Source of the DNA: Lentzea tibetensis
GTDB taxonomy: Bacteria > Actinomycetota > Actinomycetes > Mycobacteriales > Pseudonocardiaceae
NCBI RefSeq assembly: GCF_007845675.1
Contig: NZ_VOBR01000014.1
Coordinates: 124,001-188,000 of the forward strand
DNA: 64,000 nt
Direction: 5' to 3'
Of the stretch, positions 3,191 through 63,030 are shown piece after piece; the stretch's first letter is position 1, and each line of letters starts with the position of its first letter. The translations under genes and the position numbers were made by a program. A model generated the notes under the pieces. The model worked only from the letters and a program-made list of their open reading frames with translations, did no database searches and was not told where the DNA came from.

Positions 3191-3230
3191 AAAAGCGTGG
3201 CGGACACGGCACGCGGCCGTGCTCACGCAG

Positions 3231-3301
3231 GCGTCCCCGCACGTGAGAACCCCCCGATCCATGCTCTCAGCCAGCACCGACAACTCTGCGCCCGCAGAAA
3301 C
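3231..3301 (+). repeat. Degenerate copy F of the dispersed GCTCACGC element
   Basis: It begins GCTCACGCAGGCGTCCCCGC and ends AGCACCGACAAC. Copies E and F share a middle section (GAGAA-CCCCCGA-ATGCTC-CAGCC) unlike the four complete copies elsewhere, so they form a subfamily or are older remnants. Confidence 0.55.
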
Positions 3302-7714: not shown

Positions 7715-9390
7715 CAGAACAGGAAGTAGCGCTGCGCCATGGGCAGCTCGGTGGCGGGCTGCGGCTCGATCAGCTCGCCGTCGACGTGCACGGCGAAGCT
7801 GTCCGGGTCCACGCGCACGCGCGGCATGGCGTCGTTGAGGATCATGTCCGCCTTGCCGACGCCGCGGGTGTTCTTCACCGGCAGCACGCGCCGCGCGAAC
7901 CGGTCCGCGATGCCGTCCTCGATCGCCTGCTCCGACACGAAGTGCACGCTGCTCTGCGCACCGGCGGACGCACCGAACATGGGCCGCGCGAACACCGGCT
8001 GCGGCGTCGGGATGGACGCGTTCGCGTCACCCATCGCGGCCCACGCGATGAACCCGCCCTTCAGCACGACGGACGGCCGCACGCCGAAGAACTTGGGCTC
8101 CCACAGCACGAGGTCCGCGAGCTTGCCCGGCTCGACCGAGCCGACCTCGTCGTCGATGCCGTGCGCGATGGCCGGGTTGATCGTGTACTTCGCGACGTAA
8201 CGCCGGGCGCGCAGGTTGTCCTCGCCGCGCCGCTTCAGCATCACGTGCGCGGTCTGCCACGTCCGGATGATCACCTCACCGACCCGGCCCATGGCCTGCG
8301 AGTCGGAGCTGATCATCGAGATGGCGCCGAGGTCGTGCAGCACGTCCTCGGCCGCGATCGTGCTCGGCCGGATGCGGCTCTCCGCGAACGCCAGGTCCTC
8401 GGGCACCGAGGGGTTGAGGTGGTGGCAGACCATCAGCATGTCGAGGTGCTCGTCGAGCGTGTTGACGGTGTGCGGCCGGGTCGGGTTCGTCGACGACGGC
8501 AGGACGTTCGGCTCGGAGACGATCTGGATGATGTCGGGCGCGTGCCCGCCGCCGGCGCCTTCCGAGTGGTAGGCGTTGATGGACCGACCGGCGATGGCGT
8601 CCACTGTGGACTCCAGGAAGCCCGCCTCGTTCAGCGTGTCGGTGTGGATCGCGACCTGCACGCCGGACTCGTCGGCGATCCGCAGGCACGCGTCGATCGC
8701 GGCGGGCGTGGTGCCCCAGTCCTCGTGCAGCTTGAACCCGCCCGCGCCGCCGACGAGCTGCTCGCGCAACGCCTCGTCGCGAACCGTGTTCCCCTTGCCC
8801 AGCAGCAGGACGTTGACGGGCAGGTGGTCCATCGCGGTCAGCATGCGGCCCAGGTTCCACGCGCCGGGCGTCACCGTCGTGGCCTTCGTGCCCTCCGCGG
8901 GCCCGGTGCCGCCGCCGATCAACGTGGTGAGCCCGGACGCCAGCGCCTCGTCCACGATCTGCGGACAGATGAAGTGCACGTGGCAGTCGATGCCACCGGC
9001 GGTCAGGATCTTCCCGTTGCCGGACAGGATCTCCGTCGACGGGCCGATCACGATGTCGACGCCGTCCATGGTGTCCGGGTTGCCCGCCTTGCCGATCTTC
9101 TCGATGCGGCCGTCGCGGACGGCGACGTCGGCCTTGACGACGCCCCAGTGGTCGAGGATCACCGCGCCGGTGATCACCAGGTCCGGGGCGCCCTCGGCAC
9201 GGGTCGCCATGCCCTGCCCCATGGACTCGCGGATGACCTTGCCGCCACCGAAGATGACCTCGTCGCCGGAACCACCGGCGCGGCAGCGGTCTTCGGTGAC
9301 CTCGAGGTAGATGTCCGTGTCCGCCAACCGGATCCGGTCACCGGTCGTCGGGCCGAGGAGCTCGGCGTAGCGCTCGCGATCGATCGTCAT
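7714..9390 (-). CDS. ureC: Urease alpha subunit (catalytic)
   Basis: Nickel amidohydrolase that splits urea into ammonia and carbamate. Full length (558 residues). Active-site elements are present: [13 protein letters not shown] (HxH nickel ligands), [12 protein letters not shown] with the carbamylated Lys bridging both nickel ions, [26 protein letters not shown], and the mobile flap MVCHHLNP with the catalytic Cys-His. It should be active once loaded with nickel. It starts at ATG 9390, overlapping the ureAB stop by 4 bases. Confidence 0.97.
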
Positions 9391-25209: not shown

Positions 25210-25330
25210 CGACACCACGCTCACGCAGGGGTCCTCGCCAGGGGGTCCCCTGATTTCATTCTCCCACTCGACACCGACAGATCCGGGCCGTCAGCAGGCA
25301 GCCTGTGGACAACTCACCGGCTGTGGACAA
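25210..25330 (+). repeat. Dispersed element copy A with paired DnaA-box sequences
   Basis: The conserved core runs 25219-25279 (GCTCACGCAGGGGTCCTCGC at its left, CGACACCGACA at its right, with the dyad CAGGGGGTCCCCTG inside). TGTGGACAA follows at 25304-25312, 25 bases past the core end, and again at 25322-25330, 18 bases further. These equal the actinobacterial DnaA box TTGTCCACA on the other strand. Over 70 bp (25210-25279) it differs from copy B at one base. It sits between convergent genes. Confidence 0.85.
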
Positions 25331-43579: not shown

Positions 43580-43690
43580 GCTGCCGCAGGCGTCCCCGCC
43601 AGGGGTCCCCTGCTTTCAGAATCCCAGGAGACACCGACAATTCGGGGCGCCCGCGGCGAGCCCTGTGGACAACTCGGACCCTGTGGACAG
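43580..43690 (+). repeat. Dispersed element copy C with paired DnaA-box-like sequences
   Basis: Core 43580-43639 (GCAGGCGTCCCCGCCAGGGG, then TCCCCTG, ending GACACCGACA). TGTGGACAA at 43664-43672, again 25 bases past the core end, and TGTGGACAG (one mismatch) at 43682-43690, again 18 bases later. The sequence between core and first box is not conserved with other copies, but its length is. It sits between convergent genes. Confidence 0.8.
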
Positions 43691-43693
43691 CCA

Positions 43694-43743
43694 GCCCAGC
43701 AGCACCGACTAGCCCAGCAGCACCGACTAGCCCAGCAGCACCG
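43694..43743 (+). repeat. 18-bp tandem repeat duplicating the end of the ATPase gene
   Basis: GCCCAGCAGCACCGACTA occurs at 43694-43711 and 43712-43729; its first 14 bases recur at 43730-43743. On the minus strand each unit reads VLLG-stop, so the last codons and stop of the GHKL ATPase gene are repeated downstream and back-up stop codons exist. Confidence 0.85.
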
Positions 43744-46516
43744 CGGGCGTCGGGTCGGTGATCAGAGCGGCGAACGTGTGCCGGTCAGCCCACCGCCCGG
43801 TCGTCCACGCGAGCGCACGGGCCAGCCCCTCGGGCGTGTCCTCGGCGTGCGGCTCACCGCCGACCATCCACCAGGAGACGACCTGCCCGGACACGACCAG
43901 CGAGTCGTGCACCACCACGACCCCGGCAGGCAGCTCGACCTCCAGCAGCTCACACGCCACCCGCACCGCACCGAGCGAGTGCCAGGGCACCGGCTCCCCG
44001 TCCGACGACGGGGTCCCGCCCACCTCCTCGGAGGCGAACGGCAGGTCGAGCAGCTCGGCGAGCTCCTCGGTGGCGACCGCCGAAGCCAGCACCCGCGAAG
44101 GAGGCAGCACACCCAGCAGCCACGGCTGGTCGAGGATCACGACGTCGTCGGCGGGTACGGCCTCACCGGACAGCACCCGCACGCGCTCGCAGTCGAGCAC
44201 ATCGCCCGAAGGCGGCACCTCGGCCAACGCCGCGTGAGCACGCAGAGCCAGCGCGTCCGGGACGGCGCGCGACGGATCGCCGAGCCGCGCGACGAGGTCG
44301 GTCACGTCGTCGTCGCCGCGCAGCACGAGCTCGGACCGCACGCCTGCCGCGACGAGCGCGTGCCGGGGCAGGTCGAGATCGGGCACCGGGTCGTACAGCC
44401 CGAGCAGGTCGGCGGCCTCCGGCAGGCACCACGTCCCCGGCGCCTGGCCGGCGAGCCGCGCGTACTGCGAGATCCACCAGCCGGTGTAGCCGTCGGGTTC
44501 GGTCACCGCGCGCCACGTCACCGGGTCGGCGGCCAGCAGGCGCAGAGCCGCGGGCCAGTCCGCCACGAGGTCGAGGTCGCGCACGCCGATCACGCGCGAC
44601 GGCGGTTCCTCAGCCGAGTCCCACCAGTAGCCCTCGTCGGGCAGGTCGTGGTCCGGCTCGGTCGCCTCGTCGTCGACGACGACCTGGAACCCGTCCAGCA
44701 CGCCGACCGCGGCCAGCGCGGTGCGCGGCCACGCGTCGGCGACGCGCTTGTCCAGCACGGCGAACGCGTCCGGCTCCAGCACCTCGCGCAACGGCGAGTC
44801 CGGCAGCACCAGCTCGTCGGCTCGGCGCCAGTCGCCGGAGGAGTCGCGCAACGCCAGGGCCGAGAGCCACGGCTGCTCACCCGGACGCACCGACGAGCGG
44901 TCGACCAGGCGCAGCACGGTCTCCACCAGCTCGGCACCGTCGAGGCCCGCCTGGGCGTCCTCGACGCTGCGCTGCACGGCCTCGCGCAGACCGGCCGAGT
45001 CCAGCAGTTCCGACGCGCCCGCCTCGACCGCGCCCAGCCGCGTCAGCAGCGGGTGCACGGCGTCCGGGTGCACGATCCGCAGGCCCGGCAACGGTTCGTC
45101 GGCGATCAGCACGGTGCGCGGACCGGTCACGAGGCGGCCGTCGGCCAGCGGGACCGGGAGCGCGGACAACGCCTCGCGCACGTCCGAGGAAACATCAGCC
45201 AGCGGCTCGAAGGCCGCGTAAACGTCGCGCCACCACGCCGGATCGCCACCCACGCCCGACAGGGCAGCGACGACCTCGGCCACCGAGAGACGCGGAACCT
45301 CAAGTGCAGCAAGGGCTTTCGCGTGCGATGGCTCGGACAACGACGCGTCCAGCAGCCCGGGAAGAGCGTCCTCGACGAGCTCGACCAGCTCATCGCTGAC
45401 GACGTCCAGCACCCGAGCAGCCGAAGGCGCGGCCCATTCACCGCTCGCCAACGGCAGCCACGCGGCCGTCCGCAACGACTGCAGCAGCGAGGAACGCAGC
45501 CGCGAGTCCACTTCGGACAGGGGGAAGCCGGGCAGCGGCACCAGAGAAGTCCGCTCGACAGCGGGGATGCGCGCGACCAGCGCCGGGTACAGAGCGGCTG
45601 CCTGGTCCAGCACGAACCACGCCGCCTCGCCGGGCAGGATGCGCCGCCGCGACGGCTCGACCGGCAGCGTGGCCAGCAGCCGTGCGGGCAACGACAGCCG
45701 TTCGTCGGTCGGCGTCGGCGCGTGCAGCACGTCCTCACCCAACGGCGAGTCGAGCGGGTAGGCCCAGGTGACCGTCCACTGAGGACGGGTCTCGACGCCC
45801 TGCACGAACGAGGCGGGCACCTCACCGGACGCACGCTCCACGAGCCAGCGCGTCGAGCCGACGGTGACCACACCGTCGGCGGACTCGGACCGCTCCCACA
45901 CCTGCGAGCCGACCTCGATGCGGCGCAGACCGGGCAGCGCCAGCAGCAGGTCGGGTGCCTGCAGAGCGAAGGAGTCGAGCGACACCTCGCCCGAAACGGG
46001 CAGGCGCACCTCGGTCGCGAACCCGTCCGGCACGTCCTCGACGCAGGGCCACACGAGCCGCAGCACGGGCACGTCACCGCCGCGCTGAGCCGCCAGCTCG
46101 GGCACCTCGTCACGCGTGCGAGCCGCGGAGAACTCCACACCACCGGAAAGAGAAACCACTCGCGGCGCGTCGGTCACGGCGAGCACGGCGGCGAAGCCGA
46201 CGCCGAACTGCCCGACGCCGCTCTCCTTGGCCGACGCGCGCAGCGACGCGAGCGCTGCCACGCCAGCGGTGGTCAGCGGGGCGCCGGTGTTGGCCGCGCG
46301 CAGCTCACCGTCGACCAGCGAGATCCGCAGGAACCCGCCCTCCGGCGGTGCCGCGTCGGCGGCGTTCTGCGCCAGCTCGACGAACAGCCGGTCGCGGTAG
46401 GACCCGATGCGCAGGTCCTCCTCCGCGTTGGCGTCCTCGCGGAACCGGGTCGGGGAGTCGCGCCACGCGGAGAGAACCGCGGCCCTCAGTGCCGCGGTCC
46501 CGAAGGGGTCGGTCAC
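43727..46516 (-). CDS. Sacsin/Hsp90-like GHKL ATPase-domain protein
   Basis: 929 residues. The N-terminal 200 carry a GHKL ATPase fold like the repeat ATPase of sacsin: FVELAQNAADAAPPEGG (N-box with the Mg-binding Asn), LRAANTGAPLT (G1; Asn replaces the usual Asp) and ESGVGQFGVGFAAVLAV (G2, GxGxFGxGF). The other 700 residues are Leu/Asp/Val/Trp-rich without a known domain. Possible chaperone, or an ATPase partner as in sacsin-like defence proteins. GTG at 46516 overlaps the DUF3027 stop, so the two are coupled. It is conserved in actinomycetes, which argues for housekeeping. Confidence 0.82.
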   Translation of the reverse strand: MTDPFGTAALRAAVLSAWRDSPTRFREDANAEEDLRIGSYRDRLFVELAQNAADAAPPEGGFLRISLVDGELRAANTGAPLTTAGVAALASLRASAKESGVGQFGVGFAAVLAVTDAPRVVSLSGGVEFSAARTRDEVPELAAQRGGDVPVLRLVWPCVEDVPDGFATEVRLPVSGEVSLDSFALQAPDLLLALPGLRRIEVGSQVWERSESADGVVTVGSTRWLVERASGEVPASFVQGVETRPQWTVTWAYPLDSPLGEDVLHAPTPTDERLSLPARLLATLPVEPSRRRILPGEAAWFVLDQAAALYPALVARIPAVERTSLVPLPGFPLSEVDSRLRSSLLQSLRTAAWLPLASGEWAAPSAARVLDVVSDELVELVEDALPGLLDASLSEPSHAKALAALEVPRLSVAEVVAALSGVGGDPAWWRDVYAAFEPLADVSSDVREALSALPVPLADGRLVTGPRTVLIADEPLPGLRIVHPDAVHPLLTRLGAVEAGASELLDSAGLREAVQRSVEDAQAGLDGAELVETVLRLVDRSSVRPGEQPWLSALALRDSSGDWRRADELVLPDSPLREVLEPDAFAVLDKRVADAWPRTALAAVGVLDGFQVVVDDEATEPDHDLPDEGYWWDSAEEPPSRVIGVRDLDLVADWPAALRLLAADPVTWRAVTEPDGYTGWWISQYARLAGQAPGTWCLPEAADLLGLYDPVPDLDLPRHALVAAGVRSELVLRGDDDVTDLVARLGDPSRAVPDALALRAHAALAEVPPSGDVLDCERVRVLSGEAVPADDVVILDQPWLLGVLPPSRVLASAVATEELAELLDLPFASEEVGGTPSSDGEPVPWHSLGAVRVACELLEVELPAGVVVVHDSLVVSGQVVSWWMVGGEPHAEDTPEGLARALAWTTGRWADRHTFAALITDPTPAVLLG

Positions 46517-53277: not shown

Positions 53278-53281
53278 TGGG

Positions 53282-53384
53282 CGACACCATGCTCACGCAG
53301 GGGTCCTCGCCAGGGGGTCCCCTGATTTCATTCTCCCACTCGACACCGACAATTTCGGGGCGCGATGACGCAGCCTGTGGACAA
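53282..53384 (+). repeat. Dispersed element copy B with one DnaA-box sequence
   Basis: Core 53291-53351, identical to copy A over all 61 bases; 69 of 70 bases match from 53282. TGTGGACAA at 53376-53384, 25 bases past the core end as in the other copies. No second box at +18. It lies between the convergent mntH and Gfo/Idh genes. Confidence 0.85.
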
Positions 53385-53408
53385 CTACGCCCGACGCGTT
53401 CGCGCGGG

Positions 53409-62306: not shown

Positions 62307-63030
62307 GAACGCGGGCACGTGTTCGCGGTGGTGTAGGGCCGGCGCTCGCTTCAGGGCGGCAGGCGCACACCCAGCCCGGTGCTGCGCAGGACGTTCGCGG
62401 CGGCGGGGCGAACGTGAGTTCACGCGGGCTGGGCGGCGAACCGGCCAACTCACGAGCTCACCGCATCACTGTTCCGCAAAGCGCTCACCGCCACAGCAGG
62501 CGCGTACGACGTGTTCGCGGCGGTGTGAGCCGGCGCTCGCCGCATGGCGGCAAGCGCACACCCAGCCCATCTACTCGGTCACCACACCGGACAGATCACA
62601 GCTGCCGAGCGAACGCGAGCTCACGCAGGCGTCCCCGCCGGGGGATCCCCTGACTTTCATTCTCCCAGCGAGCACCGACAGTTCGGCGCGCCAACAGCGG
62701 CCCCTGTGGACAACTGGCGCCCTGTGGACAACTCAGGAGAGCTAGGCGCGAACCTGGCCAACTCGAGTGCTCACCGCACCGCTGTTCCGCGAAGCTCACT
62801 GCCACAACAGGCGCGCCTGAGGTGTTCGCGGCGGTGTGGGCCCGTGCTCGGCCTCATGGCGGCAGACGCACACCCGCCCGGTCCGCGCACGAAGGTTCGC
62901 GGCAGCAGCGCGAACGTGAGCTCACGCGGGCAGGCGGCGAACCGCCCAACTCGCGAGCTGACGGCACCACTGGTCCGCGAAGCTCGCCGCCGCAGCAGGC
63001 GCACATGACGTGTTCGCGGCGCGGGGCCAC
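62307..63030 (+). repeat. Three diverged tandem units of about 200 bp
   Basis: Gene-free stretch between convergent rpf and moaE. Each unit runs in order: GTGTTCGCGGCGGTGTG, a GCTCG...GGCGGCA...GCGCACACCC block, GCGAACGTGAGCTCACGCGG, GGCGGCGAACCG-CCAACTC, CTGTTCCGCGAAGCTCACCG and CAGCAGGCGC. Units begin near 62307, 62511 and 62820. The middle unit is longer because it contains dispersed element copy D. Open frames here look like by-products of G+C content. Confidence 0.7.
62619..62731 (+). repeat. Dispersed element copy D with paired DnaA-box sequences
   Basis: Core 62619-62680 (GCTCACGCAGGCGTCCCCGC, GGGGGATCCCC dyad, ending GCACCGACA). TGTGGACAA at 62705-62713, 25 bases past the core end, and TGTGGACAA at 62723-62731, 18 bases later. 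It lies inside the second unit of the 200-bp tandem repeat. Confidence 0.8.

Follow-up and report, generated by a model that had tools for sequence, protein, structure and literature searches.

A dispersed promoter-like element in Lentzea tibetensis with DnaA-type boxes at fixed upstream distances in a subset of copies

A short sequence that recurs in the window analysed here (64,000 nt of Lentzea tibetensis DNA) and at many other places of the genome is probably a dispersed DNA-damage promoter module of the PafBC type, read on the minus strand, and DnaA would act on a subset of its copies as an upstream regulator. This reading builds on features that are visible in the sequences themselves: a motif, its spacing, a replacement within the −10 region, spread of the same architecture to other genomes and insertion of one copy. 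On the minus strand the core consists of TTGTCGGTG, 8 nt and (T/G)AnnnT, followed by a G-run at the predicted transcript start; the element as a whole can be written as CCGGAATTGTCGGTG-N8-GAGAATGAAAnCAGGGGACCCCC... RecA-NDp or P1 promoters are activated by PafBC in mycobacteria and other Actinobacteria (PMC5656591, PMC6789036, PMC8223512, PMC11804915), and the mycobacterial RecA-independent damage promoter has the consensus tTGTCRgtg – 8 nt – TannnT (PMC5656591). ClgR has also been reported to read the RecA-NDp-type motif (PMC5656591). PafBC is activated by binding of single-stranded DNA and acts together with RNA polymerase at damage promoters (PMC11804915, PMC6789036).

Promoter-like core of the element

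A profile search that used sequence only found six copies in the window, all read on the minus strand: copies A, B, C and D and two divergent copies of class II (2921–2992 and 3223–3292). The original prediction had described a four-copy element with a common core. All four copies are present, whereas the number is larger, six in the window and at least 146 in the genome, and the functional strand appears to be opposite to the one on which the element had been described. Its distances can be recognised in the sequence: the first DnaA-type box begins 25 bases past the core in A–D and a second box 18 bases further in A, C and D, exact in A and D and with one mismatch in C. Genes predicted with a home-made gene caller, which places gene ends approximately, agree with its statement that A–D are flanked by convergent genes.

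In copy A, the putative promoter (25258–25280, minus strand, as are all features of copies below) has the −26 motif CTGTCGGTG at 25272–25280, an 8-nt spacer and the −10 sequence GAGAAT at 25258–25263, assigned from the sequence, the base counts of class I and the published consensus (PMC5656591). A G/C-run region at and past the predicted transcription start covers 25226–25252. Upstream of the −26 motif, the DnaA-type 9-mer TTGTCCACA follows at a gap of 23 bp (25304–25312) and a second TTGTCCACA at a gap of 41 (25322–25330). Copy D has the same layout, with CTGTCGGTG-N8-GAGAAT at 62659–62681, the G/C-run region at 62626–62652 and TTGTCCACA at gaps 23 (62705–62713) and 41 (62723–62731). Copy B carries TTGTCGGTG-N8-GAGAAT (53330–53352), the G/C-run region (53298–53324) and TTGTCCACA at gap 23 (53376–53384). 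In copy C, TTGTCGGTG-N8-GATTCT is found at 43618–43640, the G/C-run region at 43587–43612, TTGTCCACA at gap 23 (43664–43672) and CTGTCCACA, which is the box with one mismatch, at gap 41 (43682–43690). The two class II copies have TTGTCGGTG-N8-GAGCAT at 2961–2983 and 3261–3283, respectively, and are without a DnaA box. Class II copies, including these two, end an interspersed repeat of about 0.5 kb.

Genome-wide, at least 146 places match the sequence-only profile at E<0.01, and they comprise 94 class I and 52 class II copies. The profile was built from 29 genome copies (29 of 30 loci, one being dropped as a non-element), and 146 of the best 150 places were kept, the four weakest being dropped. 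The two classes were split by a regular expression, and at least two class I copies (nos. 111 and 114) resemble class II. Another profile (R1), run over 36 of 80 loci, gave two weak matches only. Since element copies share descent, counts over copies are not independent. The anchor TGTCnG is present in 92 of 94 class I and in all 52 class II copies. With the 8-nt spacing, the key −10 bases are at the expected positions in almost all of the 92 anchored class I copies (A in 91, T in 89). The pattern TTGTCRGTG-N8-GAnnnT has 94 sites in the genome as compared to 2 for the reversed-pattern control, and the canonical TTGTCRGTG-N8-TAnnnT has 14 as compared to 1. Among the 14 canonical sites, some are located a short distance ahead of pup, sbcD and a proteasome-ATPase-like gene (a call below the family cut-off, for which the first 300 residues only were supplied); others are without a near gene or apparently intragenic. 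The genome encodes a PafBC-like locus, namely two adjacent WYL genes on contig C32, located after a pafA-like gene and before tatA/tatC-like genes (names other than WYL are from reading of the translations).

The strict −10 sequence TannnT is not found in class I copies of this genome as a rule, T−12 being present in 3/92 only. Most Lentzea copies thus fail the strict damage-promoter consensus. An extended −10 is defined by a TGn motif, and TGn is present in 83 of the 89 class I copies that are without T−12. Over all rows, relatives included, TGn is found in 137 of 147 rows without T−12 as compared to 0 of 44 rows with T−12, where one site (C20:139789) is counted twice. In relatives alone the numbers are 4/7 and 0/27 (Fisher p 0.0008). 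For this count 39 of 46 box-anchored rows of relatives were used (two L232 orthologues, one L268 duplicate and four rows without −10 bases were dropped), and 8 further rows without −10 bases were set aside. The mutual replacement of T−12 and TGn is, at the level of sequence, the best evidence that the element would be a working promoter.

The position of copies relative to genes is less easy to reconcile with a promoter. Eight class I copies are inside predicted genes. Of the intergenic class I copies, 85 have both neighbours called. In 65 of these, the neighbour on the plus-strand 3′ side (strands as in the window copies) is directed at the element and has its end there, so that the element follows a stop codon when read on the minus strand, which suggests this as the working strand. 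The next gene on the promoter strand is sense in 37 and antisense in 48 of the 85 cases, i.e. there is no bias toward sense, and it is antisense at copies A–D. Many copies are orphans: they lie past a stop codon, without a gene to drive, and face a convergent gene from its 3′ end. This orphan position speaks against the promoter reading, as it leaves no gene for regulation. A contig end is within 1 kb for 15 of 52 copies of class II and for 1 of 94 of class I; the 0.5-kb repeat may therefore be a place where the assembly breaks.

DnaA-type boxes and palindrome upstream of the core

When all 94 class I and 52 class II copies were anchored, an exact box TTGTCCACA was found within 120 nt in 34 class I copies and in no class II copy. 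Copies with a box have one to three exact boxes, usually one or two, and most copies have none. On the promoter strand, the forward box in class I copies of this genome is 23 bp upstream of TTGTCGGTG (10 boxes), with a second box at 41 (4 boxes), while the inverted box has gaps of 20/21 (15 boxes) or 31/32 (5 boxes). Judging from these gaps, the TCCACA half would be placed at about the same point in both box orientations and the gap sets would be about one helical turn apart. A palindrome, TGAACGGnCCGTTCA, is present in 21 of 94 class I copies, at gaps of 19/20, 30 or 40/41. Box and palindrome are found together in one copy, and class II copies are without either. In Lentzea the box is one of two interchangeable upstream modules, the palindrome being the other. 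A LexA site was considered for the palindrome and dropped because the centre has 5 bases and not 4.

The original prediction had held that boxes missing from most copies would speak against its pairing of core and box. Boxes are indeed missing from 60/94 class I and 52/52 class II copies; yet where a box occurs the distance is fixed and the spacer sequence free, as had been proposed, and this is also the case in other genera and in a few genomes of other orders. Its DnaA-type 9-mer proved to be a real component that is concentrated at elements in the sampled loci. In 773,702 bp around elements, intergenic DNA within 130 bp of an element (35,069 bp) holds 37 exact boxes, the other intergenic DNA (96,435 bp) none, and genes 11; these loci were chosen for holding elements, and 57/94 class I and 32/52 class II copies were anchored. 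Gene 3′ ends with an element bear an exact box in 24 of 90 cases, and those without an element in 0 of 182.

The exact 9-mer occurs 140 times in the genome as compared to 37 for the reversed pattern. About 43 of the 140 boxes are within 200 nt of elements and about 97 are elsewhere. In 20 loci with boxes away from elements, hand-picked with preference for tandem pairs, a promoter-like partner at gaps 15–60 was absent from 19, and the remaining one has a canonical promoter partner at gap 23 (8 of 4000 random starts have one). In such loci (L303–L311) the exact boxes often come as pairs with 18-bp spacing, and a promoter partner is mostly missing. Since tandem pairs at 18 bp exist also away from elements, this spacing is general to boxes and not specific to the element. 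Boxes off the element count against a strict bond between box and promoter.

How the parts could work together can be outlined as follows. The conserved parts are the −26 motif TTGTCGGTG, the 8-nt spacer and a −10 that is either TAnnnT or an extended TGn form with another first base; together they have the layout of the mycobacterial PafBC-activated, RecA-independent DNA-damage promoter. Single-stranded DNA would activate PafBC, and PafBC with RNA polymerase-sigmaA would start transcription at the G-run. In the subset with the 9-mer, a second regulator, most likely DnaA, would bind on one face of the helix and raise or lower transcription with replication status; a reader of the 9-mer other than DnaA could do the same. 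DnaA can activate or repress promoters, including that of polA (PMC8203912). Orphan copies may give noncoding or antisense RNA at the 3′ ends of convergent genes. The module has multiplied in the L. tibetensis genome, at least one copy being newly inserted. In all of this, promoter activity, induction by damage, DnaA binding and an RNA product with its role are what we infer from the architecture.

Occurrence in other genomes and insertion of copy B

Among 61 genomes (that of L. tibetensis and 60 relatives), the element profile matches 27, which are its own genome, all 24 others of the genus and two outside the genus. The number of matches per genome is 3 to 73 in Lentzea relatives and at least 81 in L. 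tibetensis. The Lentzea genome with 73 matches (G024) has 8 forward boxes among the matches listed. In 17 Lentzea genus copies, taken from 20 loci, no box was found in the 75 nt upstream. One of the copies shared within the genus is located between a histidine-kinase gene and a lipoprotein gene, named by reading their translations.

Box and promoter motif are paired in the same way beyond the repeat. The inverted-box architecture matches 31 of 298 genomes of the order, 26 of them in the same family, as compared to 1 match for the reversed-pattern control. Own rows and one row from another family were dropped from the matches listed; 73 rows were used, and the 69 of them from other genomes of the family have gaps of 20 (7), 21 (20), 30 (9), 31 (23), 32 (8) and 33 (2); gaps of 19 and 22–29 did not occur among these 69, although 19–33 were allowed. 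The forward-box architecture matches 52 of 200 family genomes, with 2 matches for the reversed-pattern control, and among 138 matches listed from other genomes of the family 106 have gaps of 21–24 and 13 have gaps of 32–33 (10–40 allowed). Some of the family matches are orthologues and not independent. The palindrome architecture matches 3 of 120 genomes. Across the class, the forward box matches 16 of 148 genomes, the own genome included, as compared to 1 match for the reversed-pattern control; the gap is 23 in 10 of 23 matches from other genomes and 33 in 6, all from one genome. A genome of another order (G593) has TTGTCCACAACCCC(T/C)GTGGTTGAG... at seven places, with a gap of 33 (six) or 34 (one) to TGTCGGTG. 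This dispersed sequence appears to be a repeat that acquired the same architecture independently.

Box-anchored loci from relatives (40 loci in 46 rows, one locus being from Lentzea G024 and a few promoters standing in two rows) have A and T of the −10 in 37/46 rows and the full TAnnnT in 30/46. A hairpin-like G-run/C-run, scored by a simple pattern, is present in 17/46. The next gene is antisense in 34 rows, sense in 11 and absent in 1. In three genomes a box at gap 30 precedes a YgjP-like metallopeptidase gene (Pfam was run on one of the three).

At site B, 131 bp separate the stop codons of an Nramp gene and a GFO/IDH/MocA gene (53278–53408), and the element is between them. It is absent in 16 of 16 Lentzea relatives that have both flanking genes, where these overlap tail to tail by about 19–22 bp; a seventeenth Lentzea genome (G024) gave no Nramp match at this locus. 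In Umezawaea the two genes overlap similarly. By this comparison, copy B is an insertion. The Umezawaea interval that aligns to site C is also without the element.

Alternative explanations and related systems

The original prediction had offered a small non-autonomous mobile element as one reading, and this part stands in so far as at least one copy, that at site B, has been mobile, whereas the core looks promoter-like. According to a MITE- or REP-like explanation, the conserved blocks, the DnaA 9-mer among them, serve a mobilising machinery and the promoter likeness is incidental. A DnaA box is present at the end of IS50, which gives a precedent. Gain of copy B relative to 16/16 Lentzea relatives with both genes and to Umezawaea, the Umezawaea interval without an element at site C, copy numbers of 3 to 73 per Lentzea genome and at least 81 in L. 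tibetensis, groups of genome copies in the same orientation and the 0.5-kb repeat ended by class II would all agree with it. However, motif and box occur as a pair in other orders and also in other genera, where the body of the element differs; the pair precedes at least one gene, and the T−12/TGn replacement follows promoter logic. We consider mobility without a promoter function unlikely. As for DnaA titration or DARS/datA-like sites, and a chromosome-organising site, which had been proposed as well, the core looks like a RecA-NDp/PafBC-type promoter instead. If boxes held or recycled DnaA and the core bound a helper, concentration of exact 9-mers at elements in the sampled loci and the 140 genome boxes against 37 for the reversed pattern would be expected. 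Against this, a box is within 120 nt in only 34/94 class I and 0/52 class II copies, usually one or two and never as a dense cluster, 21 copies have the palindrome at that place, the fixed partner of the box looks like a promoter, and most genome boxes are away from elements. Titration or reactivation is thus highly improbable.

TRIT are intrinsic terminator repeats between convergent genes, and the position past stop codons and a GC-rich inverted repeat adjoining a T-rich tract on the plus strand resemble them. For the stem in its short form, both-side changes number 9 (shuffles: mean 3.9, maximum 9), and stems exceed slid controls on cells paired. On the other hand, pairing of the long stem has no excess (0.835, shuffle mean 0.832), a separate covariation test gave no pair with both-side changes, folding did not surpass that of shuffles for 3 of 4 window copies, and on the strand that has the T-rich tract behind the repeat, 48/85 preceding genes are codirectional. 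Terminators would also leave TTGTCGGTG, the 8-nt spacing and the box unexplained, which makes this explanation very hard to sustain; titration and terminator readings both fit poorly, and a stem at the transcript start is supported weakly at best. A more far-reaching and rather improbable idea is that a chromosome-wide layer of DnaA plus PafBC senses replication stress locally. R-loops or antisense RNA at gene ends, made by damage-started transcription of the G-run beside bound DnaA, would then aid replication restart (damage-inducible origin-like sites) or clear converging RNA polymerases, and would not serve gene expression.

The PafBC-type promoter module with DnaA upstream in a subset, which we prefer, resembles several known systems. 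With RecA-NDp/P1 promoters it has in common TTGTCRGTG, the 8-nt spacer and the A and T of the −10, and the same genome has a PafBC-like locus and canonical members, some of them before pup and sbcD. Unlike these promoters, the Lentzea element is dispersed in more than 100 copies, and many of these have no gene to drive; the extended −10 replaces T−12 in most copies; a G-run is at the predicted start; and a DnaA box or palindrome is at fixed upstream distances in a subset. DnaA-regulated promoters (PMC8203912) likewise have a DnaA-type box beside the promoter, whereas here the predicted binding sites keep strict helical spacing from a second activator motif, and this recurs at many sites and across several genera. 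REP/REPIN and MITE-like repeats (PMC8049555) are similarly short, intergenic and of many copies, with lineage-specific expansion and gain of a site; the difference is that the promoter architecture occurs also beyond the repeat. Mobile promoters are promoter-bearing sequences copied to many sites, a process named promoter propagation. The element shares this feature with them but would be a stress-type promoter with a fixed second site and is often not before a gene. Among titles and abstract beginnings on DnaA boxes with PafBC, on damage-related orphan promoters and on Lentzea repeats, which covered few subscription journals, we found no description of such an architecture.

Should the preferred reading be true, a single promoter architecture with strict helical phasing would bring together the initiator of replication and the main RecA-independent damage regulator of Actinobacteria; this architecture spans a family and is sparse in other orders. 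A link between replication status and damage transcription would become directly testable, and the element would exemplify a stress promoter that has multiplied as a repeat and often is not located at gene starts.

Some minor observations were made along the way. A short ORF in the transcribed part was dropped on visual inspection, since changes in length put it out of frame. An origin from 13E12/DUF222 was also considered, and no such family was listed for ten annotated window proteins. At the Rfam gathering threshold the window has one match, away from the elements, to the 5′ ureB sRNA (RF02514, 50 bits, 8949–9235, plus strand); it overlies a predicted minus-strand gene and may be a coding-region match. 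Beside copy C, at 43691–43760, direct repeats of about AGCCCAGCAGCACCGACT are located at the 3′ end of the convergent gene. Elsewhere in the genome (L131, C19:19259–19357), a long inverted repeat is flanked by two canonical TTGTCGGTG-N8-TAGGCT sites that point toward each other.
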